Both the position numbers and the translations under genes were made by a program. From positions 15,475,667-15,539,666 of the forward strand of contig OX424568.1 in the NCBI GenBank assembly GCA_949152475.1: a DNA stretch of 64,000 nucleotides, written 5' to 3'. Position 1 is the first letter of the stretch. Every line of letters begins with the position of its first letter. A model generated the notes under the pieces. The model ran no database searches. It was not told the origin of the DNA and saw only the letters and a program-made list of their open reading frames with translations. Below are positions 1 through 61,241 of the stretch, piece by piece. This DNA is from Terebella lapidaria. Taxonomy: Eukaryota; Annelida; Polychaeta; Terebellida; Terebellidae.

Positions 1-1734
1 CATATTTTGAACTCTCTACGGCGATTAGTTTCGAAGTTACGGCCATTCATGTGAGTTTGACGTAATTATGACATCAGTTGTAGTCATTTCTATACTGCAA
101 ACTTACTGTGAATGGGTTTTTCTTCAATATGCATGTTAAAATCGTGTTTATATATGTTATATTATCACCTGACAAGATCATAATATCTTCAGATAATAAG
201 TTTCCTTCGATTTGTTGCCACAAAAACGTCAATTACGTCAAAATGGATATATCAATTGAGCTAAAAATTGACAGAGCATCACAGGCCGAATCCACATCGT
301 CTGCAGGTGTTAGGTCTACAGTAAATGTTATAAATTTGCACACCTGACACTCGAAAGACCTGAATGTCAGTCTGAAATCACGTTTGACGTCATTATGACG
401 TCAATAGACGTCCGATTCCAAAAATGACAACAGATTTGGAAAGTACTTTTGAAGACCTTCCAAATGAGCTACTACTCAATATATTCACAAAAGGTCGAGG
501 TCAAGGTCATTTTTGAGGTCAACTTTGACCTCAGGCGTCAGAGTCAATGATCACATTCAAGGTCACCTAAGAAAGGCCTTTCGATATGCTACAATATGCT
601 CCTAGTCTGAACTCTCTACGATGATTAGTTCCAAAGTTATGGTCATTTATGTGATTTTGACCTCTTCTTTGACCTTGACCTTGACCTTTGACCTTGGGTC
701 ACGAAAATTGTGCCTTGTCTGAGCATGAAAATATAGATTATACTCGAATATTTTAGTCACAATCGAACAAGAATTGTGGACACTATGGCCCTTTGAAATT
801 TCAAAAAATTTACGTTGATGACGTCACTGTGACGTCAATAAACGTCAAATTTGAATATTAATGGGAAAGTGTGTGTCAGGGGAAAAAGACCTTTCATTTG
901 ATATACTACTTGATATGTTTCAGTTAGTTTTAAAATTTGACCTTGAAGTTTTCCTCATGTGACCTCATTTTTCGGACCAAGTTCAAGGTCAATCATAAAA
1001 TTGACATATACGTCTAATTGTGATACCTCTTCTGAATGATATGGTTCAAATTTCATGAACCTAGGACGATTCCAACGGATGTTATTACCGAAACGTGTTT
1101 TTCTGGGATTTCGATGACCTTGACCTTGATCTTTGACCTTTGTACTTCAAGTCGTAGAGGTCAATGCTGTCAATATGCATACCAAGTTTCAAGGGATTCC
1201 ATACACTATTGACGATGTTACGGTCTTTTTAAATTTCGGAAATTTGACGTTTATGACGTCATTGTGACGTCAGTTTACGTCGCAGCACCAAAAATAAGAT
1301 ATCACTGGATTCAGGGGCTCAAGACCTTTCCAACAATATACTACTCGATATGCTGCGCCGAACTTCGTACTTGACCTTGACTTCGTCCTCAGGCGAACTT
1401 CTCAAGGTCAAGGTCAAAGGTCAAGGTCAAGGTCACGGAAGATAGAACTCGAGCATATCTATGATATGCACTTGATTTGAAGTCTCTACGATGATTAGAA
1501 CCAGAGTTGTAGCCACTTATGTGTTTTCAACGTTTTGCATGACCTTGACCTTGACCTTTAACCTAGAATCACCAAAATCGAACTTGACCTGCCCATTTTC
1601 CTACAGAATATGCACACCGACTTTGGAAAGATTCGATTAAGAAATGTGGACGCTAGAGTGCAAACAAACAAACAAACCAACAAACCCACAAACAGACCAA
1701 CATACTTGCCGAAATCGTAGATTCCGGCAAGTAA
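1..1734 (+). mobile_element. A1: A-type module, left end cut by window edge
   Basis: This is a non-coding A-type repeat module that enters from the left edge, so its 5' terminus is not seen. The body matches A2/A3 from their interior onward. It holds three copies of an internal repeat marked by paired CRE palindromes starting at 385, 819 and 1254 (spacing 434 and 435 bp). AGGTCA clusters occur near 493-511, at 1405-1435 (forward), and at 1540-1564 (reverse orientation). It then runs into a CAAA-rich tract and a terminal hairpin at 1705-1731 followed by TAA. No transposase, Rep or helicase frame is present, so it can only be non-autonomous. The Helitron2/Helentron-like class is inferred from the ends of related modules. 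It could also be a satellite module with no mobility of its own. Confidence 0.55.
1705..1731 (+). repeat. A1 terminal hairpin
   Basis: The left arm CTTGCCGAAATC pairs with the right arm GATTCCGGCAAG around the loop GTA, giving a 12-bp stem with one mismatch. It is preceded by GACCAACATA and followed by TAA, the frame seen at the ends of the other A modules and, in a changed form, at the B hairpin. A hairpin close to the 3' end is typical of Helitron-type elements; calling this the element's end is an inference. Confidence 0.75.
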
Positions 1735-1755: not shown

Positions 1756-1780
1756 GTTGTCGAATTTTCAATTCGTCAAC
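1756..1780 (+). repeat. B-unit hairpin (reference copy)
   Basis: The arms GTTGTCGAATT and AATTCGTCAAC flank the loop TTC, giving an 11-bp stem with one T-T mismatch. It occurs at +16 in every B unit. The preceding bases GACCAACATA match those before the A hairpins, so it is best read as the 3' end of the B family, displaced from its B body by any inserted A module. A5 carries a perfectly paired version of the same stem. Confidence 0.8.
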
Positions 1781-2816: not shown

Positions 2817-2819
2817 AAC
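2771..2819 (+). repeat. (CAGA)10(CAAA)2 microsatellite of reference B unit
   Basis: Ten CAGA copies are followed by two CAAA copies and C, directly abutting the left end of A2 at 2820. Intact B-B junctions carry three CAAA copies before CGGAACTGACC. The third copy is found on the far side of the inserted modules. Confidence 0.9.
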
Positions 2820-4899
2820 GAGAGCCCATAGGGCACACACTTGCCGGAACCAAAATATATGTCATATGCCAATGACATGACATATGGATTTGAACAAATT
2901 GACTAAAATTTCTTCCCTACTTACTACGTTTACTTACTTACTTTACTTCATTTTACTTTAGTTTACTTCACAAACTACTCTTACTATCAATGTTACCTCA
3001 TTGAACGTCACAGCACCAAAAATAAGACATCAATGGACTCAGGAGACCAAGAACTTTCTAACGGTATACTACTCGATATGATGAGCTGAACTTCGTACTT
3101 GACCTCGATATTGAGCTCATCACAAAGTCTCAAAAACAATGTCAAACGTCATATTCAAAGTCAAATAAGAAAGGCTTCTCAATATGCTGCAATATGGTCA
3201 TAGTTTGAACTCTCTACGGCGATTAGTTTCGAAGTTACTGCCATTTATGTGATTTTCACGTGATTATGACATCAATTGTGATCATTTCTATGCTGCAAAC
3301 TTACTGTGAATGGATTTTTCTTTAATATGCATGTTAAAATCGTGTTTATATATGTTATAGTATCACCAGACAAGATCATAATAGCTTCAGATAATAAGTT
3401 TCCCTTGAAATTGTATCGATTTGTTGCCACAAAAACGTCAATTACGTCAAAATAGATATATCAATTGAGCTAAAAATTGACAGAGCATCACAGGCCGAAT
3501 CCACATCGTCTGCAGGTGTTAGATCTGCAGTAAATGTTATAAGTTTACACACCTGACACTTAAAAGACCTGAATGTCAGTCTGGAATCACGTTTGACGTC
3601 ATTATGACGTCAATAGACGTCCGATTCTAAAAATGACAACAGATTTGAAAAGTAATTTCGAAGACCTTTCAAATGAGCTACTACTCGATATATTCACAAA
3701 AGGTCAAGGTCAAGGTCATTTTTGAGGTCAACTTTGACCTCAGGCGTCATAGTCAATGGTCACATTGAAGGTCACCTAAGAAAGGCCTTTTGATATGCTA
3801 CAATATGATCCTAGTCTGAACTCTCTACGACGATTAGTTCCGAAGTTATGGTCAATTATGTGATTTTGATCTTTTCTTTGACCTTGACCTTTACCTTTGA
3901 CCTTGGGTCATGAAGATTGTGCATTGCCTGAGCATGGAAATATATATTATACTTGGATATTTTAGTCACAATCGAACAAGAATTGTGGACACTATGGCCT
4001 TTTGAAATTTCAAAAAATTGACGTTGATGACGTCATTGTGACGTCAATAAACGTCAAATCTGAATATTAATGGGATAGTGTGTGTCAGGGTATAAAGACC
4101 TTCCATTTGATATAGTAATTGATAGGTTTCAGTTAGTTTGGAAATTTGACCTTGAGGTTTTCCTCATGTGACCTCATTTTTCCGACCAAGTTCAAGGTCA
4201 ATCATGAAATTGACATATACGTCTGATTGCCATACCTCTTCTGAATGATATGGTTCAAATTTCATGAACCTACGACGATTCCAACAGATGTTATTACCGG
4301 AAACGCGTTTTTCTGGGATTTCGATGACCTTGACCTTGACCTTCGACCTTTGTACTTCAAGTCGTAGAGGTCAATGATGTCAATATGCATATCAAGTTTC
4401 AATGGATTCCATACACTATTAACGATATTATGGCCTTTTGAAATTTCGGAAATTTGACGTTTATGACGTCATTGTGACGTCAGTTTACGTCGCAGCGCCA
4501 AAAATAAGATATCACTGGAATCAGGGGCCCAAGACCTTTCCAACGATATACTACTCGATATGGTGCGCTGAACTTCGTACTTGACCTTGACTTCGACCTT
4601 AGGCGAACTTCTCAAGGTCAAGGTTAAAGTTCAAGATCAAGGTCACGGAAGATAGAACTCGAGTATATCTACAATATGCACTTAATTTGAAGTCTCTACG
4701 ACGATTAGAACCGGAGTTATGGCCACTTATGTGTTTTCGACGTTTTGCATGACCTTGACCTTGGCCTTTGACCTAGAATCACCAAAATCAAACCCGACCT
4801 GCCCGTTATCCTACAGAATAAGCACACCAACTTTGGAAGGATTCCAGTGAGAAATGTGGACGCTAGAGTGCGAACAAACAAACAAACAAACAAACAAAC
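2820..4899 (+). mobile_element. A2: A-type module with intact 5' terminus, no 3' hairpin
   Basis: The left end is GAGAGCCC. A GCCC-ATA-GGGC stem-loop lies at 2824-2834 and the address CTTGCCGGAA at 2840. Next come an inverted repeat (ATATGTCAT 2857-2865, ATGACATAT 2877-2885) and a degenerate TTAC-rich tract (about 2917-2985). The body then carries the CRE-marked repeats and AGGTCA clusters. It ends in a CAAA tract at about 4872-4899, where A3 starts at once, so the terminal hairpin expected for the family is missing here. A2 differs from A3 at scattered bases, while A3 and A4 look identical; A2 is therefore the older copy. A3 probably inserted into the CAAA tract of A2 or recombined with it. 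No coding capacity. Confidence 0.6.
2857..2885. repeat. Inverted repeat near A-module left end
   Basis: ATATGTCAT and ATGACATAT form a perfect 9-bp inverted repeat with an 11-bp spacer. It recurs at the same offset in A3 (4937-4965), A4 and their second copies, but not in A5 or A6. Its role is unknown. Confidence 0.7.
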
Positions 4900-5672
4900 G
4901 AGAGCCCATAGGGCACACACTTGCCGGAACCAAAATATATGTCATATGCCAATGACATGACATATGGATTTGAACAAATTGACTAAAATTTCTTCCCTAC
5001 TTACTACGTTTACTTACTTACTTTACTTCATTTTACTTTAGTTTACTTCACAAACTACTCTTACTATCAATGTTACCTCATTGAACGTCACAGCACCAAA
5101 AATAAGACATCAATGGACTCAGGAGACCAAGAACTTTCTAACGGTATACTACTCGATATGATGAGCTGAACTTCGTACTTGACCTCGATATTGAGCTCAT
5201 CACAAAGTCTCAAAAACAATGTCAAATGTCATATTCAAGTCAAATAAGAAAGGCTTCTCAATATGCTGCAATATGGTCATAGTTTGAACTCTCTACGGCG
5301 ATTAGTTTCGAAGTTACTACCATTTATGTGATTTTCAAGTGATTATGACGTCATTTGTGATCATTTCTATGCTGCAAACTTACTGTGAATGGATTTTTCT
5401 TTAATATGCATGTTAAAATCGTGTTTATATATGTTATATTATCACCAGACAAGATTATAATATCTTCAGATAATAAGTTTCCTTTGAAATTTTATCGATT
5501 TGTTGCCACAAAAACGTCAATTACGTCAAAATAGATATATCAATTGAGCTAAAAATTGACAGAGCATCACAGGCCGAATCCACATCGTCTGCAGGTGTTA
5601 GATCTGCAGTAAATGTTATAAGTTTACACACCTGACACTTAAAAGACCTGAATGTCAGTCTGGAATCACGTT

Positions 5673-6561
5673 TGACGTCATTATGACGTCTATAGACGTC
5701 CGATTCCAAAAATGACAACAAATTTGAAAAGTACTTTCGAAGACCTTTCAAATGAGCTACTACTCGATATATTCACAAAAGGTCAAGGTCAAGGTCATTT
5801 TTGAGGTCAACTTTGACCTCAGGCGTCATAGTCAATGGTCACATTGAAGGTCACCTAAGAAAGGCCTTTTGATATGCTACAATATGATCCTAGTCTGAAC
5901 TCTCTACGACGATTAGTTCCGAAGTTATTGTCAATTATGTGATTTTGACCTTTTCTTTGACCTTGACCTTTACCTTTGACCTTGGGTCATGAAGATTGTG
6001 CATTGCCTGAGCATGGAAATATATATTATACTTGGATATTTTAGTCACAATCGAACAAGAATTGTGGACACTATGGCCTTTTGAAATTTCAAAAAATTGA
6101 CGTTGATGACGTCATTGTGACGTCAATAAACGTCAAATCTGAATATTAATGAGATAGTGTGTGTCAGGGTATAAAGACCTTCCATTTGATATACTAATTG
6201 ATAGGTTTCAGTTAGTTTGGAAATTTGACCTTGAGGTTTTCCTCATGTGACCTCATTTTCCCGACCAGGTTCAAGGTCAATCATGAAATTGACATATACG
6301 TCTGATTGCCATACCTCTTCTGAATGATATGGTTCAAATTTCATGAACCTACGACGATTCCAACAGATGTTATTACCGGAAACGCGTTTTTCTGGGATTT
6401 CGATGACCTTGACCTTGACCTTTGACCTTTGTACTTCAAGTCGTAGAGGTCAATGATGTCAATATGCATATCAAGTTTCAATGGATTCCATACACTATTA
6501 ACGATATTATGGCCTTTTGAAATTTCGGAAATTTTACGTTTATGACGTCATTGTGACGTCA
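5673..6561 (+). repeat. Degenerate 434-436 bp internal repeats of A3
   Basis: Anchors at 5673, 6107 and 6543 each hold two CRE cores starting 11 bp apart. Each is followed by similar text on the theme AAGACCTTTC then TACTACTCGATAT then TTGACC. The same periodicity is seen in A1 (385, 819, 1254) and A5 (16505, 16940, 17376). The copies are strongly diverged from each other within a module but each is conserved between modules, so the internal duplication predates the spread of the A family. Confidence 0.65.
5803..5820. promoter_or_regulatory. Palindromic AGGTCA element in A3
   Basis: GAGGTCAA and TTGACCTC are perfect inverted copies around CT, which places two AGGTCA half-sites head to head with a 4-bp spacer. 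Just upstream, at 5780-5797, are three direct AGGTCA half-sites with no spacer. The same arrangement is at 515-532 in A1. AGGTCA is the standard half-site of nuclear receptors; binding is not shown. Confidence 0.35.
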
Positions 6562-6828
6562 GTTTACGTCGCAGCGCCAAAAATAAGATATCACTGGAAT
6601 CAGGGGCCCAAGACCTTTCCAACGATATACTACTCGATATGGTGCGCTGAACTTCGTACTTGACCTTGACTTCGACCTCAGGCGAACTTCTCAAGGTCAA
6701 GGTTAAAGTTCAAGGTCAAGGTCACGGAAGATAGAACTCGAGTATATCTACAATATGCACTTAATTTGAAGTCTCTACGACGATTAGAACCGGAGTTATG
6801 GCCACTTATGTGTTTTCGACGTTTTGCA

Positions 6829-6853
6829 TGACCTTGACCTTGACCTTTGACCT
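6829..6853 (-). promoter_or_regulatory. Cluster of four AGGTCA half-sites (reverse strand) in A3
   Basis: Four TGACCT hexamers lie in direct repeat with spacings 0, 0 and 1, so the last pair is a DR1 arrangement of the kind bound by RXR/HNF4/COUP-type receptors. TCAAGGTCA, the extended half-site of SF-1/ERR-type receptors, is also present on the reverse strand. Opposed forward clusters lie about 100 bp upstream. Sequence match only. Confidence 0.35.
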
Positions 6854-6993
6854 AGAATCACCAAAATCAAACCCGACCTGCCCATTATCCTAGAGAATAC
6901 GCACACCAAGTTTGGAAGAAATCGGGTCAGAAATGTGGACGCTAGAGTGCGAACAAACAAACAAACAAACAAATCCACAAACAGACCAACATA

Positions 6994-7020
6994 CTTGCCG
7001 AAATCGAAGATTCCGGCAAG
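6994..7020 (+). repeat. A3 terminal hairpin
   Basis: The arms CTTGCCGAAATC and GATTCCGGCAAG flank the loop GAA, giving a 12-bp stem with one mismatch. It is preceded by GACCAACATA and followed by TAA. The innermost pair is C-G here and T-A in A6. Confidence 0.75.
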
Positions 7021-7028
7021 TAACAAAC

Positions 7029-7932
7029 GGAACTGACCAACATAGTTGTCGAATTTTCAATTCGTCAACTAATAAAGCTCCGCAAGTAGAAGAGACCCTG
7101 CGTATATCCGTTTCATGTACAGGATCTTTGGTTTTTAGATGAATGGTGCTCCCTACGCGTTTTCGTCACCCCCGATAGTGCTGATATAAAAGATCCCCTC
7201 GCTTGCCACAGATTGTATTTAGACAAGGGTTTTAGGCTTTGTTACATCACTTGTGCATCACTGAGTTGGAAAACCACAGAAATGTTGCTTTAGACCAGTA
7301 TTCAGATGCATACAAGGTATATTGTATTACTACGCTACCGAGTGTTGATATTAGAGACGGTACGTGTGCACAGGGGGTAATCGTTTCCACATCATATTGA
7401 ATTGTGAACGGGCTGACCAACAGTTTTACCCCAGGTCTCTTTAAGTCTTAATATCTCAGCGAGTTTTCAAGTTATTTTGAAAATAAAAAGTGCACCTTAA
7501 ACTAGAAATAACACTGCATTTTTCTACATAAACAGCTTCAAAATTCAATATCCAATGATTTTTTAAAAATTGGATCCAGAAGAAAATGAAATGTATCCGT
7601 AGAATCCGGAATCCGGATCCGATCCGGATCAAACTTGCAATGTCTGTAGAGGTTGTCATTCTACACATGTGACTAAAATTTCAAGAGAATTCAATAAAAA
7701 TTAAACGAGTTATGAATTTTTGAAAAATCGCCCCATGTTAAAGATAGGGATTTTTCGAGTTTTCAAGAATTTTTGATGACGTCATCAATAAACCGATTTT
7801 CTTCAAAAACTTTCGGTGTCCTTCCTGGGTGAATACCTACCTATCAGAAAAATTTCGTGATGCTCGCACTAAAACTGTGGCCTGTATCGTGCAAACAGAC
7901 AGACAGACAGACAGACAAACAAACAAACAAAC
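7029..7932 (+). repeat. B': short B variant (904 bp)
   Basis: It aligns with the B unit along its whole length but has many single-base differences and lacks about 165 bp between the two TCCGGAT-type motifs. It keeps the B hairpin, the TATA-like box and the CRE palindrome. The tract has 5 CAGA and 4 CAAA copies and then meets A4. It is either the state before an internal duplication in B, or a deletion by recombination between the two motifs. The divergence of B' from the near-identical B units suggests an older lineage that escaped array homogenisation. Confidence 0.75.
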
Positions 7933-10056
7933 GAGAGCCCATAGGGCACACACTTGCCGGAACCAAAATATATGTCATATGCCAATGACATGACATATGG
8001 ATTTGAACAAATTGACTAAAATTTCTTCCCTACTTACTACGTTTACTTACTTACTTTACTTCATTTTACTTTAGTTTACTTCACAAACTACTCTTACTAT
8101 CAATGTTACCTCATTGAACGTCACAGCACCAAAAATAAGACATCAATGGACTCAGGAGACCAAGAACTTTCTAACGGTATACTACTCGATATGATGAGCT
8201 GAACTTCGTACTTGACCTCGATATTGAGCTCATCACAAAGTCTCAAAAACAATGTCAAATGTCATATTCAAGTCAAATAAGAAAGGCTTCTCAATATGCT
8301 GCAATATGGTCATAGTTTGAACTCTCTACGGCGATTAGTTTCGAAGTTACTACCATTTATGTGATTTTCAAGTGATTATGACGTCATTTGTGATCATTTC
8401 TATGCTGCAAACTTACTGTGAATGGATTTTTCTTTAATATGCATGTTAAAATCGTGTTTATATATGTTATATTATCACCAGACAAGATTATAATATCTTC
8501 AGATAATAAGTTTCCTTTGAAATTTTATCGATTTGTTGCCACAAAAACGTCAATTACGTCAAAATAGATATATCAATTGAGCTAAAAATTGACAGAGCAT
8601 CACAGGCCGAATCCACATCGTCTGCAGGTGTTAGATCTGCAGTAAATGTTATAAGTTTACACACCTGACACTTAAAAGACCTGAATGTCAGTCTGGAATC
8701 ACGTTTGACGTCATTATGACGTCTATAGACGTCCGATTCCAAAAATGACAACAAATTTGAAAAGTACTTTCGAAGACCTTTCAAATGAGCTACTACTCGA
8801 TATATTCACAAAAGGTCAAGGTCAAGGTCATTTTTGAGGTCAACTTTGACCTCAGGCGTCATAGTCAATGGTCACATTGAAGGTCACCTAAGAAAGGCCT
8901 TTTGATATGCTACAATATGATCCTAGTCTGAACTCTCTACGACGATTAGTTCCGAAGTTATTGTCAATTATGTGATTTTGACCTTTTCTTTGACCTTGAC
9001 CTTTACCTTTGACCTTGGGTCATGAAGATTGTGCATTGCCTGAGCATGGAAATATATATTATACTTGGATATTTTAGTCACAATCGAACAAGAATTGTGG
9101 ACACTATGGCCTTTTGAAATTTCAAAAAATTGACGTTGATGACGTCATTGTGACGTCAATAAACGTCAAATCTGAATATTAATGAGATAGTGTGTGTCAG
9201 GGTATAAAGACCTTCCATTTGATATACTAATTGATAGGTTTCAGTTAGTTTGGAAATTTGACCTTGAGGTTTTCCTCATGTGACCTCATTTTCCCGACCA
9301 GGTTCAAGGTCAATCATGAAATTGACATATACGTCTGATTGCCATACCTCTTCTGAATGATATGGTTCAAATTTCATGAACCTACGACGATTCCAACAGA
9401 TGTTATTACCGGAAACGCGTTTTTCTGGGATTTCGATGACCTTGACCTTGACCTTTGACCTTTGTACTTCAAGTCGTAGAGGTCAATGATGTCAATATGC
9501 ATATCAAGTTTCAATGGATTCCATACACTATTAACGATATTATGGCCTTTTGAAATTTCGGAAATTTTACGTTTATGACGTCATTGTGACGTCAGTTTAC
9601 GTCGCAGCGCCAAAAATAAGATATCACTGGAATCAGGGGCCCAAGACCTTTCCAACGATATACTACTCGATATGGTGCGCTGAACTTCGTACTTGACCTT
9701 GACTTCGACCTCAGGCGAACTTCTCAAGGTCAAGGTTAAAGTTCAAGGTCAAGGTCACGGAAGATAGAACTCGAGTATATCTACAATATGCACTTAATTT
9801 GAAGTCTCTACGACGATTAGAACCGGAGTTATGGCCACTTATGTGTTTTCGACGTTTTGCATGACCTTGACCTTGACCTTTGACCTAGAATCACCAAAAT
9901 CAAACCCGACCTGCCCATTATCCTAGAGAATACGCACACCAAGTTTGGAAGAAATCGGGTCAGAAATGTGGACGCTAGAGTGCGAACAAACAAACAAACA
10001 AACAAATCCACAAACAGACCAACATACTTGCCGAAATCGAAGATTCCGGCAAGTAA
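7933..10056 (+). mobile_element. A4: complete A-type module, apparently identical to A3
   Basis: It lies 3,033 bp downstream of A3 at matching positions throughout. In the stretches I compared, including every landmark motif, I saw no difference from A3. It ends in a hairpin at 10027-10053 and TAA. It is followed by a second copy of its last 54 bp and then by the B hairpin. Its identity with A3, against the divergence of A2, points to a recent tandem duplication of the A-B' segment and not to two insertions. Confidence 0.65.
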
Positions 10057-10110
10057 CAAATCCACAAACAGACCAACATACTTGCCGAAATCGAAGATTC
10101 CGGCAAGTAA
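10003..10110 (+). repeat. 54-bp tandem duplication of the A terminal segment
   Basis: Two identical 54-bp units (10003-10056 and 10057-10110) each contain CAAATCCACAAACAGACC, the terminal hairpin (10027-10053 and 10081-10107) and TAA. The extra unit may be a local duplication. Alternatively it is the displaced 3' end of A2, which lacks its own hairpin at 4899. The same double end is present at 27288-27395. Confidence 0.8.
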
Positions 10111-10115: not shown

Positions 10116-12206
10116 GGAACTGACCAACATAGTTGTCGAATTTTCAATTCGTCAACTAATAAAGCTTCGCAAGTAGAAGAGACCCTGCGTATATCCGTTT
10201 CATGTACAGGATCTTTGGTTTTTAGATGAATGGTGCTCCCTACGCATTTTCGTAAATGTCGATAGTGCTGATATAAAAGAGCCCCTGGCTCGCCAGAGAT
10301 TGTATTTAAACAAGAGTTTTAGGCTTTGTTATATCACTTGTGCATTACTGAGTTAGAAAACCACAGAAATGTTGCTTTAGATCAGTATTCAGATGCATAC
10401 AAGGTATATTGTATTACTACGCGACCGAGTGTTGACATTAGAGACGGTACATGTGCACAGGGGGTAATCGTTTCCACATCTTATTGAGTTGTAAACGGGC
10501 TGACGAACAGATTTACCCCAGGTCTCTTTAAGTCTTGATATCTCAGCGAGTTTTCAAGTTATTTTGAACATGAAAAATGCACCTTAAACTAGAAATAACA
10601 CCGCATTTTTCCACAAAACAGCTTCAAAATTCAATGTTCAATGATTTTTTGAAAATTGGATCCAGAGGAAAAATAAATGTATCCATAAAACCCGGAATCC
10701 GGATCCGATCCGGATGAAATTTTGTCAGTTTATGGACCATGATAGTCCGCCACTTTGTAGGAAAAATCAAGCTGAAATATGCACAATAGACCGAAATATA
10801 ATATAAAATATAAGTTAAATGGAGTTTTCAATGTTAAATTCAAATAGCTGTCAAATCCGTAATCCGGGTCCGATCCGGGTCAAAATTATAATGTGTGTAT
10901 AGGATGTCATTCTACACATGTGACTAAAATTTCAAGAGAATTCATTGAAAATTGAACGAGTTATGAATTTTTGAAAAATCGCCCCATGTTAAAGATAGGG
11001 ATTTTTCGAGTTTTCAAGAATTTTTGATGACGTCATCAATAAACCGATTTTCTTCAAAAACTTTCGGTGTCCTTCCTGGGTGAATACCTACCTATCAGAA
11101 AAATTTGGTGATGCTCGCACTAAAACTGTGGCCTGTAACGTGCAAACAGACAGACAGACAGACAGACAAACAAACAAACGGAACTGACCAACATAGTTGT
11201 CGAATTTTCAATTCGTCAACTAATAAAGCTTCGCAAGTAGAAGAGACCCTGCGTATATCCGTTTCATGTACAGGATCTTTGGTTTTTAGATGAATGGTGC
11301 TCCCTACGCATTTTCGTAAATGTCGATAGTGCTGATATAAAAGAGCCCCTGGCTCGCCAGAGATTGTATTTAAACAAGAGTTTTAGGCTTTGTTATATCA
11401 CTTGTGCATTACTGAGTTAGAAAACCACAGAAATGTTGCTTTAGATCAGTATTCAGATGCATACAAGGTATATTGTATTACTACGCGACCGAGTGTTGAC
11501 ATTAGAGACGGTACATGTGCACAGGGGGTAATCGTTTCCACATCTTATTGAGTTGTAAACGGGCTGACGAACAGATTTACCCCAGGTCTCTTTAAGTCTT
11601 GATATCTCAGCGAGTTTTCAAGTTATTTTGAACATGAAAAATGCACCTTAAACTAGAAATAACACCGCATTTTTCCACAAAACAGCTTCAAAATTCAATG
11701 TTCAATGATTTTTTGAAAATTGGATCCAGAGGAAAAATAAATGTATCCATAAAACCCGGAATCCGGATCCGATCCGGATGAAATTTTGTCAGTTTATGGA
11801 CCATGATAGTCCGCCACTTTGTAGGAAAAATCAAGCTGAAATATGCACAATAGACCGAAATATAATATAAAATATAAGTTAAATGGAGTTTTCAATGTTA
11901 AATTCAAATAGCTGTCAAATCCGTAATCCGGGTCCGATCCGGGTCAAAATTATAATGTGTGTATAGGATGTCATTCTACACATGTGACTAAAATTTCAAG
12001 AGAATTCATTGAAAATTGAACGAGTTATGAATTTTTGAAAAATCGCCCCATGTTAAAGATAGGGATTTTTCGAGTTTTCAAGAATTTTTGATGACGTCAT
12101 CAATAAACCGATTTTCTTCAAAAACTTTCGGTGTCCTTCCTGGGTGAATACCTACCTATCAGAAAAATTTGGTGATGCTCGCACTAAAACTGTGGCCTGT
12201 AACGTG

Positions 12207-12264
<58 letters not shown>

Positions 12265-13298
12265 AACAAACGGAACTGACCAACATAGTTGTCGAATTTT
12301 CAATTCGTCAACTAATAAAGCTTCGCAAGTAGAAGAGACCCTGCGTATATCCGTTTCATGTACAGGATCTTTGGTTTTTAGATGAATGGTGCTCCCTACG
12401 CATTTTCGTAAATGTCGATAGTGCTGATATAAAAGAGCCCCTGGCTCGCCAGAGATTGTATTTAAACAAGAGTTTTAGGCTTTGTTATATCACTTGTGCA
12501 TTACTGAGTTAGAAAACCACAGAAATGTTGCTTTAGATCAGTATTCAGATGCATACAAGGTATATTGTATTACTACGCGACCGAGTGTTGACATTAGAGA
12601 CGGTACATGTGCACAGGGGGTAATCGTTTCCACATCTTATTGAGTTGTAAACGGGCTGACGAACAGATTTACCCCAGGTCTCTTTAAGTCTTGATATCTC
12701 AGCGAGTTTTCAAGTTATTTTGAACATGAAAAATGCACCTTAAACTAGAAATAACACCGCATTTTTCCACAAAACAGCTTCAAAATTCAATGTTCAATGA
12801 TTTTTTGAAAATTGGATCCAGAGGAAAAATAAATGTATCCATAAAACCCGGAATCCGGATCCGATCCGGATGAAATTTTGTCAGTTTATGGACCATGATA
12901 GTCCGCCACTTTGTAGGAAAAATCAAGCTGAAATATGCACAATAGACCGAAATATAATATAAAATATAAGTTAAATGGAGTTTTCAATGTTAAATTCAAA
13001 TAGCTGTCAAATCCGTAATCCGGGTCCGATCCGGGTCAAAATTATAATGTGTGTATAGGATGTCATTCTACACATGTGACTAAAATTTCAAGAGAATTCA
13101 TTGAAAATTGAACGAGTTATGAATTTTTGAAAAATCGCCCCATGTTAAAGATAGGGATTTTTCGAGTTTTCAAGAATTTTTGATGACGTCATCAATAAAC
13201 CGATTTTCTTCAAAAACTTTCGGTGTCCTTCCTGGGTGAATACCTACCTATCAGAAAAATTTGGTGATGCTCGCACTAAAACTGTGGCCTGTAACGTG

Positions 13299-13352
<54 letters not shown>

Positions 13353-14386
13353 AACAAACGGAACTGACCAACATAGTTGTCGAATTTTCAATTCGTCAAC
13401 TAATAAAGCTTCGCAAGTAGAAGAGACCCTGCGTATATCCGTTTCATGTACAGGATCTTTGGTTTTTAGATGAATGGTGCTCCCTACGCATTTTCGTAAA
13501 TGTCGATAGTGCTGATATAAAAGAGCCCCTGGCTCGCCAGAGATTGTATTTAAACAAGAGTTTTAGGCTTTGTTATATCACTTGTGCATTACTGAGTTAG
13601 AAAACCACAGAAATGTTGCTTTAGATCAGTATTCAGATGCATACAAGGTATATTGTATTACTACGCGACCGAGTGTTGACATTAGAGACGGTACATGTGC
13701 ACAGGGGGTAATCGTTTCCACATCTTATTGAGTTGTAAACGGGCTGACGAACAGATTTACCCCAGGTCTCTTTAAGTCTTGATATCTCAGCGAGTTTTCA
13801 AGTTATTTTGAACATGAAAAATGCACCTTAAACTAGAAATAACACCGCATTTTTCCACAAAACAGCTTCAAAATTCAATGTTCAATGATTTTTTGAAAAT
13901 TGGATCCAGAGGAAAAATAAATGTATCCATAAAACCCGGAATCCGGATCCGATCCGGATGAAATTTTGTCAGTTTATGGACCATGATAGTCCGCCACTTT
14001 GTAGGAAAAATCAAGCTGAAATATGCACAATAGACCGAAATATAATATAAAATATAAGTTAAATGGAGTTTTCAATGTTAAATTCAAATAGCTGTCAAAT
14101 CCGTAATCCGGGTCCGATCCGGGTCAAAATTATAATGTGTGTATAGGATGTCATTCTACACATGTGACTAAAATTTCAAGAGAATTCATTGAAAATTGAA
14201 CGAGTTATGAATTTTTGAAAAATCGCCCCATGTTAAAGATAGGGATTTTTCGAGTTTTCAAGAATTTTTGATGACGTCATCAATAAACCGATTTTCTTCA
14301 AAAACTTTCGGTGTCCTTCCTGGGTGAATACCTACCTATCAGAAAAATTTGGTGATGCTCGCACTAAAACTGTGGCCTGTAACGTG

Positions 14387-14432
<46 letters not shown>

Positions 14433-15466
14433 AACAAACGGAACTGACCAACATAGTTGTCGAATTTTCAATTCGTCAACTAATAAAGCTTCGCAAGTAG
14501 AAGAGACCCTGCGTATATCCGTTTCATGTACAGGATCTTTGGTTTTTAGATGAATGGTGCTCCCTACGCATTTTCGTAAATGTCGATAGTGCTGATATAA
14601 AAGAGCCCCTGGCTCGCCAGAGATTGTATTTAAACAAGAGTTTTAGGCTTTGTTATATCACTTGTGCATTACTGAGTTAGAAAACCACAGAAATGTTGCT
14701 TTAGATCAGTATTCAGATGCATACAAGGTATATTGTATTACTACGCGACCGAGTGTTGACATTAGAGACGGTACATGTGCACAGGGGGTAATCGTTTCCA
14801 CATCTTATTGAGTTGTAAACGGGCTGACGAACAGATTTACCCCAGGTCTCTTTAAGTCTTGATATCTCAGCGAGTTTTCAAGTTATTTTGAACATGAAAA
14901 ATGCACCTTAAACTAGAAATAACACCGCATTTTTCCACAAAACAGCTTCAAAATTCAATGTTCAATGATTTTTTGAAAATTGGATCCAGAGGAAAAATAA
15001 ATGTATCCATAAAACCCGGAATCCGGATCCGATCCGGATGAAATTTTGTCAGTTTATGGACCATGATAGTCCGCCACTTTGTAGGAAAAATCAAGCTGAA
15101 ATATGCACAATAGACCGAAATATAATATAAAATATAAGTTAAATGGAGTTTTCAATGTTAAATTCAAATAGCTGTCAAATCCGTAATCCGGGTCCGATCC
15201 GGGTCAAAATTATAATGTGTGTATAGGATGTCATTCTACACATGTGACTAAAATTTCAAGAGAATTCATTGAAAATTGAACGAGTTATGAATTTTTGAAA
15301 AATCGCCCCATGTTAAAGATAGGGATTTTTCGAGTTTTCAAGAATTTTTGATGACGTCATCAATAAACCGATTTTCTTCAAAAACTTTCGGTGTCCTTCC
15401 TGGGTGAATACCTACCTATCAGAAAAATTTGGTGATGCTCGCACTAAAACTGTGGCCTGTAACGTG

Positions 15467-15512
<46 letters not shown>

Positions 15513-15515
15513 AAC
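10116..15515 (+). repeat. B array I: five tandem B units
   Basis: Units start at 10116, 11180, 12272, 13360 and 14440, with lengths 1064, 1092, 1088, 1080 and 1076 bp. The bodies appear identical to the reference B unit; the length differences come from CAGA copy number. The last unit has 9 CAGA and 2 CAAA, with A5 starting inside the CAAA tract at 15516. No genes, and nothing else is seen in this stretch. Confidence 0.9.
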
Positions 15516-16054
15516 GAGGGGCCATAGGCCCGGCAGTTGACGAATTAGGAAGGTTACCGGACAATATATGTTTTAGATATATGTTTTAGTGAGATATTAG
15601 CCATTTTGTGCTCTGACCTCAATTTTCAAATCATGAGAAGATATAACATATATCATTTCCTATACATGTATGTTGAAAGCTGTAAAGTCGATAAAAAGCG
15701 ATATATTAGCCACATTGTGCTCTGACCTTGAAAATGAGGTCGAAGGTCAAATGTCAAGGTCACAGAAGATAGAACTCGAGTTAATCTACAATATGAACTT
15801 GGTTTGAAGTCTCTAGGGCGATTAGAACCGAAGTTATGGCCATTTATGTGTTTTCGACACTTTATGTGACCTTGACCTTGACCTTGACCTTTGACCTAGG
15901 GTCCCCAAATTTCACCCATTTGCAAGTATATACATAAGCATTTTATACGTACAATTTGGTCATGATACGTCCAAAACTGTGGCTTGTAGAGCGGTAATAT
16001 ACGAAGAACAAACTAGATTTTGATGATAACAATAGAATGCAAAGCAGTTTTTCC

Positions 16055-16068
16055 GTTGCCATGGCAAC
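16055..16068. promoter_or_regulatory. Perfect X-box-like palindrome in A5
   Basis: GTTGCCATGGCAAC is a perfect 14-bp palindrome equal to the consensus X-box bound by RFX-family factors. Decayed relatives sit in other modules: GTTGCCATAGAAAC at 60733 in A6 and GTTGCCACAAAAAC at 214 in A1. Functional use is not shown. Confidence 0.35.
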
Positions 16069-17831
16069 ATTTTTCAGGCGAATTTGACTAAAATCAATGG
16101 GTGCCTGGCTTTGAGCCTAAAAAGTGTTCCCATAAAGTTTGGTGATGATCCGACCTAAACTGTGATATGTTTCAGTTAGTTTGAAAATTTGACCTTGAAG
16201 TTTTGAATGTGTCCTCATTTTTGCGACCAAGTTCAAGGTCAATCATAAAATTGACATGTACATATGATTACCATGCCTCTTCTGAATGATATGGTTCAAA
16301 TTTTATGAGACTACAACAATTCAAGCAGATGTTATAACCGAAAAGGTGTTTTTCTAGGATTTCGATGACCTTGACCTTGACCTTTTACCTTTGTATTTCA
16401 ATTCGTAGAGGTCAATGCTATTAATATGCATGTCAAGTTTCAAGATATTCCATACAGTATTGACGCTGGTATGGCCTTTTGAAATTTCGGTAATTTGACG
16501 TTTATGACGTCATTGTGACGTGAGTGTACGTCGCAGCGCCAAAAATAAGGTATCACTGCAATCAGGGGCCCAAGACCTTTCCAACGATATACTACTCGAT
16601 ATGATTCGCTGACCTTCGTACTTGACCTTGACATTCACCTCATGGCAAACTCTCGAGGTCAAGGTCAAATGCCAAGGTCAAGGTCACAGAAGATAGAACA
16701 AGAGTTTATCTACAATATGAACTTGGTTTGAAGTCTCTAGCACAAATAGAACCGGAGTTATGGCCACTTATGTGTTTTTAACATTTTGCGTGACCTTGAC
16801 CTTGACTTTGGACCTTGAGTCACAAAAATTGTGCATTGTCTGTGCATGAATATATATATTGTATCTGTAAAATTTCATCAGAATCAAACAAAATTTGTGG
16901 ACACTATGACCGTTTGAAATTTTGAAAAATTAACGTTTATGACGTCACTGTGACGTCAATAAACGTCACAGCTCAAAACTGATGAAAAGGTATGTACCAG
17001 GGAATCAAGACCTTTCATTTGATATACTACTTGATAGGTTTCAGTTAGTTTTAAAATTTGACCTTGAAGTTCTCCTCATATGACCTTATTTTCCTGACTA
17101 AGTTCAAGGTCAATCATGAAATTGACATATAGGTTCGATTGCTATACCTCTTCTGAACGATATGGTTCAAATTTCATGAACTTACGACAATTCAAACGGA
17201 TGTTATTACCGGAAATGTGTTTTTCTGGGATTTCGATGACCTTGACCTTGACCTTTGACCTTTGCACTTAAATTCGTAGAGGTCATTGCTGTCAATATGC
17301 ATATCAAGTTTCAAGAGATTCCATGCAGTATTGACGATGTTATGGCCTTTTGAAATTTCTGGAATTTGACGTTTATGACGTCATTGTGACGTCAGTGTAC
17401 GTCGCAGCGCCGAAAATAGGGTATCACTGCGATCAGGGGGTCAAGACCTTTCCAATGATATATTACTCGATATGCTGCGCTGATCTTCGTACTTGACCTT
17501 GACTTCGACCTGGGGCAAACTTCTCAAGGTCAAGGTCAAATGTCAAGGTCAAGGTCACAGACGATAGAACTCGAGTGTATCTACAATATGCACTTGGTTA
17601 GAAGTCTCTAGAATGATTAGAACCGGAGTTATGACCACTTATGTGTTTTCAACGTTTTGTGTGACCTTGACCTTGACCTTTGACTTAGGGTCACCAAAAT
17701 TCACCGGTTTCCAGGTATATACCTAGGCATTGTATCCATACGATTTGGTGATGATCCGGCCAAAACTGTGGCCTGTAACGTGCAAACAGACAAACAAACA
17801 GACAAACAGACAAACCGAACTGACCAACATA

Positions 17832-17856
17832 GTTGACGAATTTTTAATTCGTCAAC
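17832..17856 (+). repeat. A5 terminal hairpin (perfect)
   Basis: The arms GTTGACGAATT and AATTCGTCAAC pair over 11 bp with no mismatch around the loop TTT. GACCAACATA precedes it and TAA follows. Then come CAAACGG and the B hairpin, which differs from this one at one arm position and one loop base. Confidence 0.85.
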
Positions 17857-17864
17857 TAACAAAC

Positions 17865-18891: not shown

Positions 18892-18937
<46 letters not shown>

Positions 18938-19971: not shown

Positions 19972-20017
<46 letters not shown>

Positions 20018-21051: not shown

Positions 21052-21097
<46 letters not shown>

Positions 21098-22131: not shown

Positions 22132-22181
<50 letters not shown>

Positions 22182-22184
22182 AAC
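17865..22184 (+). repeat. B array II: four tandem B units, all 1080 bp
   Basis: Units start at 17865, 18945, 20025 and 21105. The first three carry 9 CAGA and 3 CAAA; the last has 10 CAGA and 2 CAAA and runs into the second A3 copy at 22185. Uniform length in the fastest-changing part of the unit suggests very recent amplification of one monomer. Nothing else is seen here. Confidence 0.9.
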
Positions 22185-24308
22185 GAGAGCCCATAGGGCA
22201 CACACTTGCCGGAACCAAAATATATGTCATATGCCAATGACATGACATATGGATTTGAACAAATTGACTAAAATTTCTTCCCTACTTACTACGTTTACTT
22301 ACTTACTTTACTTCATTTTACTTTAGTTTACTTCACAAACTACTCTTACTATCAATGTTACCTCATTGAACGTCACAGCACCAAAAATAAGACATCAATG
22401 GACTCAGGAGACCAAGAACTTTCTAACGGTATACTACTCGATATGATGAGCTGAACTTCGTACTTGACCTCGATATTGAGCTCATCACAAAGTCTCAAAA
22501 ACAATGTCAAATGTCATATTCAAGTCAAATAAGAAAGGCTTCTCAATATGCTGCAATATGGTCATAGTTTGAACTCTCTACGGCGATTAGTTTCGAAGTT
22601 ACTACCATTTATGTGATTTTCAAGTGATTATGACGTCATTTGTGATCATTTCTATGCTGCAAACTTACTGTGAATGGATTTTTCTTTAATATGCATGTTA
22701 AAATCGTGTTTATATATGTTATATTATCACCAGACAAGATTATAATATCTTCAGATAATAAGTTTCCTTTGAAATTTTATCGATTTGTTGCCACAAAAAC
22801 GTCAATTACGTCAAAATAGATATATCAATTGAGCTAAAAATTGACAGAGCATCACAGGCCGAATCCACATCGTCTGCAGGTGTTAGATCTGCAGTAAATG
22901 TTATAAGTTTACACACCTGACACTTAAAAGACCTGAATGTCAGTCTGGAATCACGTTTGACGTCATTATGACGTCTATAGACGTCCGATTCCAAAAATGA
23001 CAACAAATTTGAAAAGTACTTTCGAAGACCTTTCAAATGAGCTACTACTCGATATATTCACAAAAGGTCAAGGTCAAGGTCATTTTTGAGGTCAACTTTG
23101 ACCTCAGGCGTCATAGTCAATGGTCACATTGAAGGTCACCTAAGAAAGGCCTTTTGATATGCTACAATATGATCCTAGTCTGAACTCTCTACGACGATTA
23201 GTTCCGAAGTTATTGTCAATTATGTGATTTTGACCTTTTCTTTGACCTTGACCTTTACCTTTGACCTTGGGTCATGAAGATTGTGCATTGCCTGAGCATG
23301 GAAATATATATTATACTTGGATATTTTAGTCACAATCGAACAAGAATTGTGGACACTATGGCCTTTTGAAATTTCAAAAAATTGACGTTGATGACGTCAT
23401 TGTGACGTCAATAAACGTCAAATCTGAATATTAATGAGATAGTGTGTGTCAGGGTATAAAGACCTTCCATTTGATATACTAATTGATAGGTTTCAGTTAG
23501 TTTGGAAATTTGACCTTGAGGTTTTCCTCATGTGACCTCATTTTCCCGACCAGGTTCAAGGTCAATCATGAAATTGACATATACGTCTGATTGCCATACC
23601 TCTTCTGAATGATATGGTTCAAATTTCATGAACCTACGACGATTCCAACAGATGTTATTACCGGAAACGCGTTTTTCTGGGATTTCGATGACCTTGACCT
23701 TGACCTTTGACCTTTGTACTTCAAGTCGTAGAGGTCAATGATGTCAATATGCATATCAAGTTTCAATGGATTCCATACACTATTAACGATATTATGGCCT
23801 TTTGAAATTTCGGAAATTTTACGTTTATGACGTCATTGTGACGTCAGTTTACGTCGCAGCGCCAAAAATAAGATATCACTGGAATCAGGGGCCCAAGACC
23901 TTTCCAACGATATACTACTCGATATGGTGCGCTGAACTTCGTACTTGACCTTGACTTCGACCTCAGGCGAACTTCTCAAGGTCAAGGTTAAAGTTCAAGG
24001 TCAAGGTCACGGAAGATAGAACTCGAGTATATCTACAATATGCACTTAATTTGAAGTCTCTACGACGATTAGAACCGGAGTTATGGCCACTTATGTGTTT
24101 TCGACGTTTTGCATGACCTTGACCTTGACCTTTGACCTAGAATCACCAAAATCAAACCCGACCTGCCCATTATCCTAGAGAATACGCACACCAAGTTTGG
24201 AAGAAATCGGGTCAGAAATGTGGACGCTAGAGTGCGAACAAACAAACAAACAAACAAATCCACAAACAGACCAACATACTTGCCGAAATCGAAGATTCCG
24301 GCAAGTAA
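22185..24308 (+). mobile_element. A3 second copy (offset 17,285 bp)
   Basis: Every landmark of A3 recurs 17,285 bp downstream, with hairpin at 24279-24305. I saw no difference in the parts compared. Its left neighbour is a B unit here, whereas at 4900 it is A2; the right context (B', A4, double end, B) is the same. It belongs to a large segmental duplication and does not look like a separate insertion. Confidence 0.65.
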
Positions 24309-24313: not shown

Positions 24314-25217
24314 GGAACTGACCAACATAGTTGTCGAATTTTCAATTCGTCAACTAATAAAGCTCCGCAAGTAGAAGAGACCCTGCGTATATCCGTTTCA
24401 TGTACAGGATCTTTGGTTTTTAGATGAATGGTGCTCCCTACGCGTTTTCGTCACCCCCGATAGTGCTGATATAAAAGATCCCCTCGCTTGCCACAGATTG
24501 TATTTAGACAAGGGTTTTAGGCTTTGTTACATCACTTGTGCATCACTGAGTTGGAAAACCACAGAAATGTTGCTTTAGACCAGTATTCAGATGCATACAA
24601 GGTATATTGTATTACTACGCTACCGAGTGTTGATATTAGAGACGGTACGTGTGCACAGGGGGTAATCGTTTCCACATCATATTGAATTGTGAACGGGCTG
24701 ACCAACAGTTTTACCCCAGGTCTCTTTAAGTCTTAATATCTCAGCGAGTTTTCAAGTTATTTTGAAAATAAAAAGTGCACCTTAAACTAGAAATAACACT
24801 GCATTTTTCTACATAAACAGCTTCAAAATTCAATATCCAATGATTTTTTAAAAATTGGATCCAGAAGAAAATGAAATGTATCCGTAGAATCCGGAATCCG
24901 GATCCGATCCGGATCAAACTTGCAATGTCTGTAGAGGTTGTCATTCTACACATGTGACTAAAATTTCAAGAGAATTCAATAAAAATTAAACGAGTTATGA
25001 ATTTTTGAAAAATCGCCCCATGTTAAAGATAGGGATTTTTCGAGTTTTCAAGAATTTTTGATGACGTCATCAATAAACCGATTTTCTTCAAAAACTTTCG
25101 GTGTCCTTCCTGGGTGAATACCTACCTATCAGAAAAATTTCGTGATGCTCGCACTAAAACTGTGGCCTGTATCGTGCAAACAGACAGACAGACAGACAGA
25201 CAAACAAACAAACAAAC
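24314..25217 (+). repeat. B' second copy
   Basis: Same as 7029-7932 at an offset of 17,285 bp, including the single TCCGGAT-type motif and the 5 CAGA and 4 CAAA copies. It is part of the duplicated block. Confidence 0.75.
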
Positions 25218-27341
25218 GAGAGCCCATAGGGCACACACTTGCCGGAACCAAAATATATGTCATATGCCAATGACATGACATATGGATTTGAACAAATTGA
25301 CTAAAATTTCTTCCCTACTTACTACGTTTACTTACTTACTTTACTTCATTTTACTTTAGTTTACTTCACAAACTACTCTTACTATCAATGTTACCTCATT
25401 GAACGTCACAGCACCAAAAATAAGACATCAATGGACTCAGGAGACCAAGAACTTTCTAACGGTATACTACTCGATATGATGAGCTGAACTTCGTACTTGA
25501 CCTCGATATTGAGCTCATCACAAAGTCTCAAAAACAATGTCAAATGTCATATTCAAGTCAAATAAGAAAGGCTTCTCAATATGCTGCAATATGGTCATAG
25601 TTTGAACTCTCTACGGCGATTAGTTTCGAAGTTACTACCATTTATGTGATTTTCAAGTGATTATGACGTCATTTGTGATCATTTCTATGCTGCAAACTTA
25701 CTGTGAATGGATTTTTCTTTAATATGCATGTTAAAATCGTGTTTATATATGTTATATTATCACCAGACAAGATTATAATATCTTCAGATAATAAGTTTCC
25801 TTTGAAATTTTATCGATTTGTTGCCACAAAAACGTCAATTACGTCAAAATAGATATATCAATTGAGCTAAAAATTGACAGAGCATCACAGGCCGAATCCA
25901 CATCGTCTGCAGGTGTTAGATCTGCAGTAAATGTTATAAGTTTACACACCTGACACTTAAAAGACCTGAATGTCAGTCTGGAATCACGTTTGACGTCATT
26001 ATGACGTCTATAGACGTCCGATTCCAAAAATGACAACAAATTTGAAAAGTACTTTCGAAGACCTTTCAAATGAGCTACTACTCGATATATTCACAAAAGG
26101 TCAAGGTCAAGGTCATTTTTGAGGTCAACTTTGACCTCAGGCGTCATAGTCAATGGTCACATTGAAGGTCACCTAAGAAAGGCCTTTTGATATGCTACAA
26201 TATGATCCTAGTCTGAACTCTCTACGACGATTAGTTCCGAAGTTATTGTCAATTATGTGATTTTGACCTTTTCTTTGACCTTGACCTTTACCTTTGACCT
26301 TGGGTCATGAAGATTGTGCATTGCCTGAGCATGGAAATATATATTATACTTGGATATTTTAGTCACAATCGAACAAGAATTGTGGACACTATGGCCTTTT
26401 GAAATTTCAAAAAATTGACGTTGATGACGTCATTGTGACGTCAATAAACGTCAAATCTGAATATTAATGAGATAGTGTGTGTCAGGGTATAAAGACCTTC
26501 CATTTGATATACTAATTGATAGGTTTCAGTTAGTTTGGAAATTTGACCTTGAGGTTTTCCTCATGTGACCTCATTTTCCCGACCAGGTTCAAGGTCAATC
26601 ATGAAATTGACATATACGTCTGATTGCCATACCTCTTCTGAATGATATGGTTCAAATTTCATGAACCTACGACGATTCCAACAGATGTTATTACCGGAAA
26701 CGCGTTTTTCTGGGATTTCGATGACCTTGACCTTGACCTTTGACCTTTGTACTTCAAGTCGTAGAGGTCAATGATGTCAATATGCATATCAAGTTTCAAT
26801 GGATTCCATACACTATTAACGATATTATGGCCTTTTGAAATTTCGGAAATTTTACGTTTATGACGTCATTGTGACGTCAGTTTACGTCGCAGCGCCAAAA
26901 ATAAGATATCACTGGAATCAGGGGCCCAAGACCTTTCCAACGATATACTACTCGATATGGTGCGCTGAACTTCGTACTTGACCTTGACTTCGACCTCAGG
27001 CGAACTTCTCAAGGTCAAGGTTAAAGTTCAAGGTCAAGGTCACGGAAGATAGAACTCGAGTATATCTACAATATGCACTTAATTTGAAGTCTCTACGACG
27101 ATTAGAACCGGAGTTATGGCCACTTATGTGTTTTCGACGTTTTGCATGACCTTGACCTTGACCTTTGACCTAGAATCACCAAAATCAAACCCGACCTGCC
27201 CATTATCCTAGAGAATACGCACACCAAGTTTGGAAGAAATCGGGTCAGAAATGTGGACGCTAGAGTGCGAACAAACAAACAAACAAACAAATCCACAAAC
27301 AGACCAACATACTTGCCGAAATCGAAGATTCCGGCAAGTAA
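25218..27341 (+). mobile_element. A4 second copy (offset 17,285 bp)
   Basis: Matches A4 (7933-10056), with hairpin at 27312-27338 and TAA. It is followed by the extra 54-bp terminal unit and then by B array III. Confidence 0.65.
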
Positions 27342-27395
27342 CAAATCCACAAACAGACCAACATACTTGCCGAAATCGAAGATTCCGGCAAGTAA
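27288..27395 (+). repeat. 54-bp terminal duplication, second copy
   Basis: Two 54-bp units with hairpins at 27312-27338 and 27366-27392, the counterpart of 10003-10110. Here no A2-like module lies upstream, so if the extra end belonged to A2, it is now an orphan. Confidence 0.75.
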
Positions 27396-59734: not shown

Positions 59735-59737
59735 AAC
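27401..59737 (+). repeat. B array III: 30 tandem B units
   Basis: Units start at 27401, 28465, 29549, 30626, 31698, 32774, 33854, 34942, 36014, 37098, 38178, 39262, 40330, 41402, 42490, 43570, 44646, 45710, 46782, 47862, 48950, 50030, 51118, 52202, 53274, 54354, 55430, 56510, 57582 and 58662. Lengths are 1064 to 1088 bp in 4-bp steps, set by CAGA number. The exception is the 1077-bp unit at 29549, which has lost part of the CAAA leader before the CAGA tract (near 30575). The bodies are nearly invariant; the only substitutions I noticed are T at 47426 and G at 51599. The last unit has 2 CAAA and abuts A6. No genes and no other structure are seen within the array. Confidence 0.92.
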
Positions 59738-60420
59738 GAGAGGCCATAGGCCACGCACTTGCCGGAATGACCTTGACTTTTGCACTTGACCTCTTGTCAG
59801 GAGCTCATTGAGAGGTTATAATAGACGTTAATGTCTCAAGCATCATTCTACAATATCAGATTTGTTTGAAGTCTCTAGGACGATTAGAGGCCGGAGTTAT
59901 GGTCACTTATCTGTTCTCATTGTTTTGCATGACCTTGACCTTCGTCATTTGTCATCAATTCTATGTGGCACACATAGTGTGAATGGAGTTTTTGAATATG
60001 CATGATAAAATTATGTTTATATATGCTATATTATCATCAAACAAAATCATAATATCTTCGAATAATGATTTTCCTTTGAAATTTTACCGATTTGTTGCCA
60101 CAAAAACGTAAATTACGTCAAAACGGATATATCAATTGAGCTAAAAATAGATAGAGACTATCATAGAAAGAATCCACATCGCTTGCATCTGTTAGACCTG
60201 CAGTAAATGTTATAACTTTGCACATCTGACACTCAAATGGCCTAAATGTCAGTCTGAAATCACATTTGACGTCATTATGACGTCAATTGACGTCCGATTC
60301 CAAAAATGACACCAGATTTGGAAAGTACTCTCGAAGACCTTTCAAACGAGCTACTACTCGATATTTTGGAAAAAGGTCAAGGTCAAGGTCACTTTTGAGG
60401 TCAAATTCGACCTCAGGCGC

Positions 60421-60860: not shown

Positions 60861-61206
60861 AAGGTCAAATATTCGACCTCGGGCGAACTTCTCAAGGTCA
60901 AAGTCAAAGGTCAAGGTCAAGGTCACAAAAGATAGAACTCGAGTATATCTACAATATGCACTTGATTTGAAGTCTCTACGACGATTAGAACCGGAGTAAA
61001 GGGCACTTATGTGTTTTCGACATTTTACATGACCTTGACCTTGACCTTTGACCTAGATTCACCAAAATAGTGCGGTGTCTGCCCAGTAATCTACAGATAT
61101 AGAGTATGTAATATGAACCGATTCGACCTAGAACTGTGGACGCTAGAGTGCAAACAAACACACAAACAAACAAACAAACCCATCCATCCACAAACAGACC
61201 AACATA

Positions 61207-61233: not shown

Positions 61234-61241
61234 TAACAAAC

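Follow-up and report, generated by a model that had tools for sequence, protein, structure and literature searches.

The 64,000-nt stretch of Terebella lapidaria DNA analysed here (the window) contains hairpins that a preliminary description read as the end signal of a rolling-circle element, with the folded end itself under selection. This raises the questions of what kind of element ends there, which of its two ends the hairpin marks and which pairing is constrained. The five hairpins originally described (starting at 1705, 1756, 6994, 17832 and 61207) lie and fold as claimed, and the reported stem changes (outermost pair C-G to G-C, fifth pair C-G to A-T, innermost pair T-A to C-G) are correct. 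GACCAACATA occurs 54 times in the window, always exact, on the plus strand only and with a hairpin after each copy; 100 shuffles, with one mismatch allowed, gave a mean of 5.4 and a maximum of 14 occurrences. Hairpins of at least 10 pairs with a loop of 3–8 nt and at most one mismatch number 61, and 54 of these are GACCAACATA ends; the same search in 20 Markov controls returned a mean of 4.6 and a maximum of 8. The 54 hairpins are well above chance expectation. Perfect stems of at least nine pairs show no excess (6 in the window; mean 2.1 and maximum 7 in the controls), and the longest, with 13 and 14 pairs, are the previously described hairpins at 17830–17858 and 61205–61235.

The 54 hairpins comprise five distinct sequences: 45 identical copies in a tandemly repeated unit (B), six of the type of element E3, and one each in elements E1, E5 and E8 (Table 1; the ends of E1–E8 are referred to as A-type). 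Since 45 of them are a single sequence in a tandem array, we rejected the 54 hairpins as independent evidence of conservation. All but two carry one imperfect pair (52/54), which is T.T on the plus strand and A.A on the minus strand in the 45 B hairpins, and A.C on the plus strand and G.T on the minus strand in seven A-type hairpins.

At the hairpin end, the ATIR lies 0–2 nt from the terminus; the opposite end has its ATIR 20 nt from the terminus, with a palindrome beyond it. According to the Helitron2 definition (PMC3627910), this placement identifies the hairpin as the start of an element on the minus strand and therefore not as its terminator. The proposal that the hairpins are ends of elements with rolling-circle anatomy is thus upheld by the end anatomy, but the supposed 3' end signal is the 5' end. 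In minus-strand orientation, an A-type element starts with TTA, the ATIR (ACTTGCCGGAA or AGTTGACGAATT) folded on its inner arm, ATGTTGGTC and a (GTTT/GTCT)n tract, and finishes with the inverted ATIR, a palindrome of one of three kinds (GCCC-TAT-GGGC, GGCC-TAT-GGCC or GGGCC-TAT-GGCCC) and CTCG. With at most one mismatch, copies of the hairpin arm away from hairpins are found at seven places only, each beside a palindrome and the junction AAAC/GAG; in elements with both ends, the distance from the hairpin to the distant ATIR copy is 1.5–2.3 kb. The 5'-ATIR is at the terminus within the 5' hairpin in all seven A-type 5' ends (E1 and E3–E8, counting E6 and E7, which are copies of E3 and E4), and the 3'-ATIR and palindrome are present in every one of the seven 3' ends of A-type elements, which have three distinct sequences and 20 nt between ATIR and end. 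B units have no recognisable 3'-ATIR, and the terminus of the 45 B hairpins was placed by analogy rather than from an empty site. Because the mismatch of the E1 and E3 hairpins becomes G.T on the minus strand, they are more stable there than on the plus strand (−11.8 versus −10.4 kcal/mol); the B hairpin is better on the minus strand by 0.3 and the two perfect hairpins are worse by 0.3. These strand differences in fold energy lend weak support to the minus polarity.

Table 1. Elements, their ends and the B units in the window
Feature	Position	Strand	Remarks
E5, complete, HINE-like, GTTGACG end family	15515..17859	-	2345 bp; inside a B unit; joined flanks = B sequence
E5 5'-terminal hairpin	17832..17856	-	5'-ATIR AGTTGACGAATT 17846-17857; inner arm 17831-17842
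E5 3'-ATIR	15535..15546	-	AATTCGTCAACT on minus; complements entire 5'-ATIR
E5 3' palindrome	15519..15531	-	GGGCC-TAT-GGCCC
E8, complete, CTTGCC family	59737..61236	-	1500 bp; A6 of the preliminary description; joined flanks = B sequence
E8 5' hairpin	61207..61233	-	perfect stem
E8 3'-ATIR	59757..59768	-	
E8 3' palindrome	59742..59752	-	GGCC-TAT-GGCC
E3, both ends, CTTGCC family	4899..7023	-	2125 bp; A3 of the preliminary description
E3 5' hairpin	6994..7020	-	one G.T wobble on minus
E3 3'-ATIR	4919..4929	-	
E3 3' palindrome	4904..4914	-	GCCC-TAT-GGGC
E4, E3-like with 54-bp duplication	7932..10110	-	two 5' termini (hairpins from 10027 and 10081)
E6, copy of E3	22184..24308	-	block duplication; 4890-12252 identical to 22175-29537
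E7, copy of E4	25217..27395	-	same block duplication
E1, 3' end beyond window	1..1734	-	A1 of the preliminary description; 5' hairpin 1705-1731
E2, 3' end present, 5' terminus missing	2819..4898	-	E3 abuts its (GTTT)n
B-type 5' hairpin, one mismatch	1756..1780	-	first of 45 identical copies
B-unit tandem array, part	10157..15514	-	units 1064-1104 bp; 5'-ATIR hairpin, no recognisable 3'-ATIR
Other B runs	1781-2818, 17906-22183, 27442-59736, 61283-64000	-	

The elements also share further traits of Helentrons and HINEs. Both a microsatellite and central repeats are usual but optional in this group; here, a (GTCT/GTTT)n microsatellite lies close to the A-type 5' end, and central repeats are present in E5 with a period of about 436 bp and 62% matches (16163–17474; like spacings occur within 1–10200). 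A MITE or other cut-and-paste transposon, which would have symmetrical terminal inverted repeats and a target duplication, was considered and rejected: the ATIR is terminal only at the hairpin, its distant copy being 20 nt internal, and no duplication is seen at E5, E6 and E8. A second near-palindrome, ATATGTCATATGCCAATGACATGACATAT, is found in five copies near the 3' end of the E2/E3 type (about 2857–2885 and 4937–4965, and three more).

Two 7.4-kb blocks of the array, 17,285 bp apart, are identical, either through very recent duplication or as an artefact of assembly; because of this block duplication, E6 and E7 are not independent of E3 and E4. A 54-bp tandem duplication at 10001–10108 and 27286–27393 provides E4 and E7 with two complete 5' hairpins each. 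E5 is a mosaic, in which ∼115 bp at the 5' end are B-like and the longest inner matches, to E1 and E3, are 83–87% identical.

When the flanks of E5, E6 and E8 (three of the six two-ended elements) are joined, the B sequence is restored exactly and without target duplication, in agreement with the insertion at TT that characterises Helentrons and HINEs. These empty sites lie in GTTT, where three phases are possible for the cut, and AACAAACAAACGG at the place of insertion is identical in all 38 complete B units. The joined flanks of E3, E4 and E7 do not contain the B string; the AAAC run on their left side is longer, and across the join the (AAAC)n continues in register. These flanks fit a microsatellite target, and a duplication of whole repeats is possible there. 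E2 on its left side and E1 on its right side are also bordered by sequence that matches this place in B. An (AAAC)n tract precedes all seven 3' ends, and each of the seven A-type 5' ends is followed by CAAACGGAACTGACCAACATA and then a B hairpin, in a single orientation. Counting both strands, TT occurs 250 times in the B unit but GTTTG only four times, always on the minus strand, so a preference for the microsatellite may suffice to explain the recurrent insertion at one place and in one orientation.

The B units form a satellite of ∼1,080 bp (38 uninterrupted units of 1064–1104 bp). Their cores are identical in 35 of the 38 units; of the others, two carry a single substitution and the third departs from the rest next to the microsatellite. 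We searched the whole window for a 3'-ATIR of B, but all 46 occurrences of AATTCGTCAAC (at most one mismatch) lie within hairpins, and the only copy of its complement outside hairpins is the 3' end of E5. The sequence of B is best explained by an element that has a 5' end but no recognisable 3' end and that was amplified very recently in tandem, and the mismatch common to the 45 B hairpins is most simply explained by one ancestral event. 3'-truncated Helitrons in tandem are already known (PMC7492417). One diverged B unit (7070–7932, copied at 24355–25217) has 92–94% identity in two pieces and an internal deletion, and its B neighbours are near-identical. Almost the sole variable part of the 38 units is a (GACA)n tract (12210–12268, 63360–63430 and the corresponding position of other B units), which could be used to order the duplications of B units.

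We found no closed open reading frame of at least 130 aa in the window, and no autonomous partner was seen there. Stop-to-stop frames of at least 60 aa number 37 in eight segments (E1–E5, E8, one B unit and the diverged B unit). A Pfam scan of ten of the 37 gave no match at the curated cut-off, and we treated the weak matches (best E 0.005) as chance; Rfam gave no match at gathering scores. Searches of prokaryote and virus collections, where absence means little, yielded no copy of GACCAACATAGTTGACGAATT in genome contigs and no match of one B unit to plasmids or of E5 to phages. GACCAACATASTTGNCG was found at 17 loci in viral contigs, also treated as chance, as none of the 17 flanks continues into the hairpin. 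A literature text search with four end strings matched 118 papers and gave no transposon title among the 30 listed.

The hairpins are very probably the 5' ends of non-autonomous Helentron/Helitron2-type elements (HINEs) on the minus strand, together with a young satellite derived from one such element. The elements combine the A-type anatomy with family-matched ends and, in three of them, exact empty sites, and their ends agree with the published anatomy of Helitron2 ends and, in outline, with that of HINEs from mites, flies and oyster (PMC3627910, PMC4067079, PMC7492417). A Rep/helicase encoded elsewhere would recognise the folded 5'-ATIR, nick and start copying. At the far end, the 3'-ATIR would take over from the inner arm in pairing with the 5'-ATIR and copying would stop, as proposed in PMC3627910; the palindrome may help to fix the end point, a role that we add from the DINE-1 literature. 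Both ends would have to match within one element and hence would change jointly.

To compare the ends (five different sequences at the 5' end and three at the 3' end), pairs were counted in a hand alignment of the five 5' ends, every row of which was confirmed to be present in the window; MAFFT misplaced the one-pair gap of E5 and B. Stem pairs 3, 7 and 14 are altered on both sides, and pair 10 is kept or lost as a whole unit. Pairs 3 and 10 split the two families, pair 10 being a stem pair of the CTTGCC family that is missing in the GTTGACG family, and pair 7 separates E5 from the CTTGCC family. The ATIR differences between the two families recur in both the inner arm and the 3'-ATIR; the latter tracks pairs 3, 7 and 10 in all three distinct end sets (E3, E8 and E5), with ATIR:ATIR pairings of 11, 12 and 12 base pairs, respectively. 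The 3'-ATIR is unmatched at pair 13 in E3 and at pair 14 in E8. The 3' palindrome has one compensatory pair, the third from the loop, which is C-G in E3 and G-C in E8 and E5. A simple independence model gives ∼5e-4 for exactly two matching substitutions in one other copy and ∼2e-7 for both others, values that omit the absent pair and take no account of the replacement of whole ends between families, which is a real possibility because E5 has a B-like 5' module and an E1/E3-like body.

Selection on the fold itself, as suggested in the preliminary description, would make the 5' hairpin the signal and the match to the far-end ATIR secondary. It is compatible with the HINE assignment, from which it differs in the pairing that is constrained, and we regard it as a serious contender, if somewhat short of probable. 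The paired changes are real, and the 5' hairpins, folded as single strands of DNA, are far more stable than shuffled sequences (z −4.9 to −10.2); the 3' ends alone fold no better than shuffles (z −0.1 to −1.5). Pair 14, the innermost, favours the hairpin itself, being C-G in E1 and E3 and T-A in E8, E5 and B, and thus changed on both sides despite the unmatched 3'-ATIR of E8. However, the paired changes comprise about four coordinated differences, three of which go with a single split between families, in a set of hairpins that are nearly all imperfect. Both unmatched changes (G.T at pair 10 in E1 and E3, A.A at pair 7 in B) lie in the inner arm and not in the ATIR, the ATIR base at the wobble pair of E3 is still matched by the 3'-ATIR, and B founded the array despite its mismatch. 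Since the 3'-ATIR follows three of the four differences and the unmatched changes are confined to the inner arm, ATIR:ATIR matching accounts for the data no worse than selection on the fold does, the innermost pair excepted.

The HINE assignment can tentatively be extended to a family-private end code of 11–12 nt, held in three copies (5'-ATIR, inner arm and 3'-ATIR). The key constraint would then apply at termination, when the hairpin must switch to an ATIR:ATIR duplex, so that an imperfect inner arm, as in E1, E3 and B, would be tolerated or even helpful and an ATIR mismatch would not. The inner-arm position of both unmatched changes fits termination by such a switch, in a tiny sample, and E5, with its B-like 5' module and E1/E3-like body, retains a matching 3'-ATIR, as this extension predicts.

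Templated change without selection is an unlikely explanation. Replication of a near-palindrome can copy one arm to the other, quasi-palindrome correction being a known process, and recombination could swap whole ends between families; the mosaic structure of E5 indicates that 5' modules do move between families. Nevertheless, the 3'-ATIR, 1.5–2.3 kb away, also follows the family and is not produced by arm-to-arm copying, and the mismatches in E1, E3 and B were left uncorrected. The originally assumed polarity, that of a canonical Helitron on the plus strand (5'-TC, CTRR-3', hairpin 10–12 nt from the 3' end, A/T target), is largely refuted by the end anatomy and very improbable: although TAA follows the hairpin and the four bases ending there are CTAA in E5 and B, the CTTGCC family reads GTAA rather than CTRR, the hairpin reaches the end rather than sitting 10–12 nt inside it, and the other end is CGAG rather than TC, with an ATIR and a palindrome.

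Among the closest known systems, Helitron2 (Bao and Jurka 2013, PMC3627910) has a 5'-ATIR 0–2 bp from the 5' end in a hairpin and a T-rich target. The 3'-ATIR of our elements lies 20 nt from the end, as in Helitron2. In contrast to Helitron2, no RepHel gene is seen in the window, and the co-change is traced here at three sites of the element and in a satellite array. That compensatory change occurs in such ends is, in principle, already published: compensatory mutations are described between the related Helitron2 elements Helitron-1N1_CQu and -1N2_CQu (PMC3627910) and suggested for the 3' stem of DINE-1 (PMC2374699). HINEs, Helentrons and DINE-1 (PMC4067079, PMC2374699) share with the present elements the subterminal inverted repeats, the 5' inverted repeat, the 3' palindrome, the microsatellite, the central repeats and the TT target, whereas in mite HINEs the 3' repeat lies 38–60 bp from the end (PMC4067079) rather than 20 nt.

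Cg_HINE of the Pacific oyster (PMC7492417) has a subTIR of 11–12 bp, an inner complementary repeat in the left flank, a GTCY-type microsatellite, a palindrome past the right subTIR and a T-rich target, all as found here. Its satellite-like repeats are central repeats, whereas the satellite unit in the window carries the 5' terminus. In microsatellite type and style of repeats, the window gives the impression of HINE-rich DNA from molluscs. Two oyster satellites of 437 bp, a length close to the ∼436-bp period of E5, are annotated as DNA/Helitron (Table 1 of PMC8268682). Short duplicated 5' termini like those of E4 and E7 (54 bp) are known from FoHeli of Fusarium, where multiple 5' termini are attributed to self-insertion (PMC5148889), whereas the insertions described here repeatedly hit one position of a tandemly arrayed unit.

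The window represents a clear case of a Helentron-type 5' end that has become a young satellite whose units have taken up other elements at one position. If the three-site matching holds genome-wide, it would provide a test, from sequence alone, of the proposal of Bao and Jurka that the 3'-ATIR terminates rolling-circle copying by opening the 5' hairpin, because that proposal predicts which of the three copies tolerates change.
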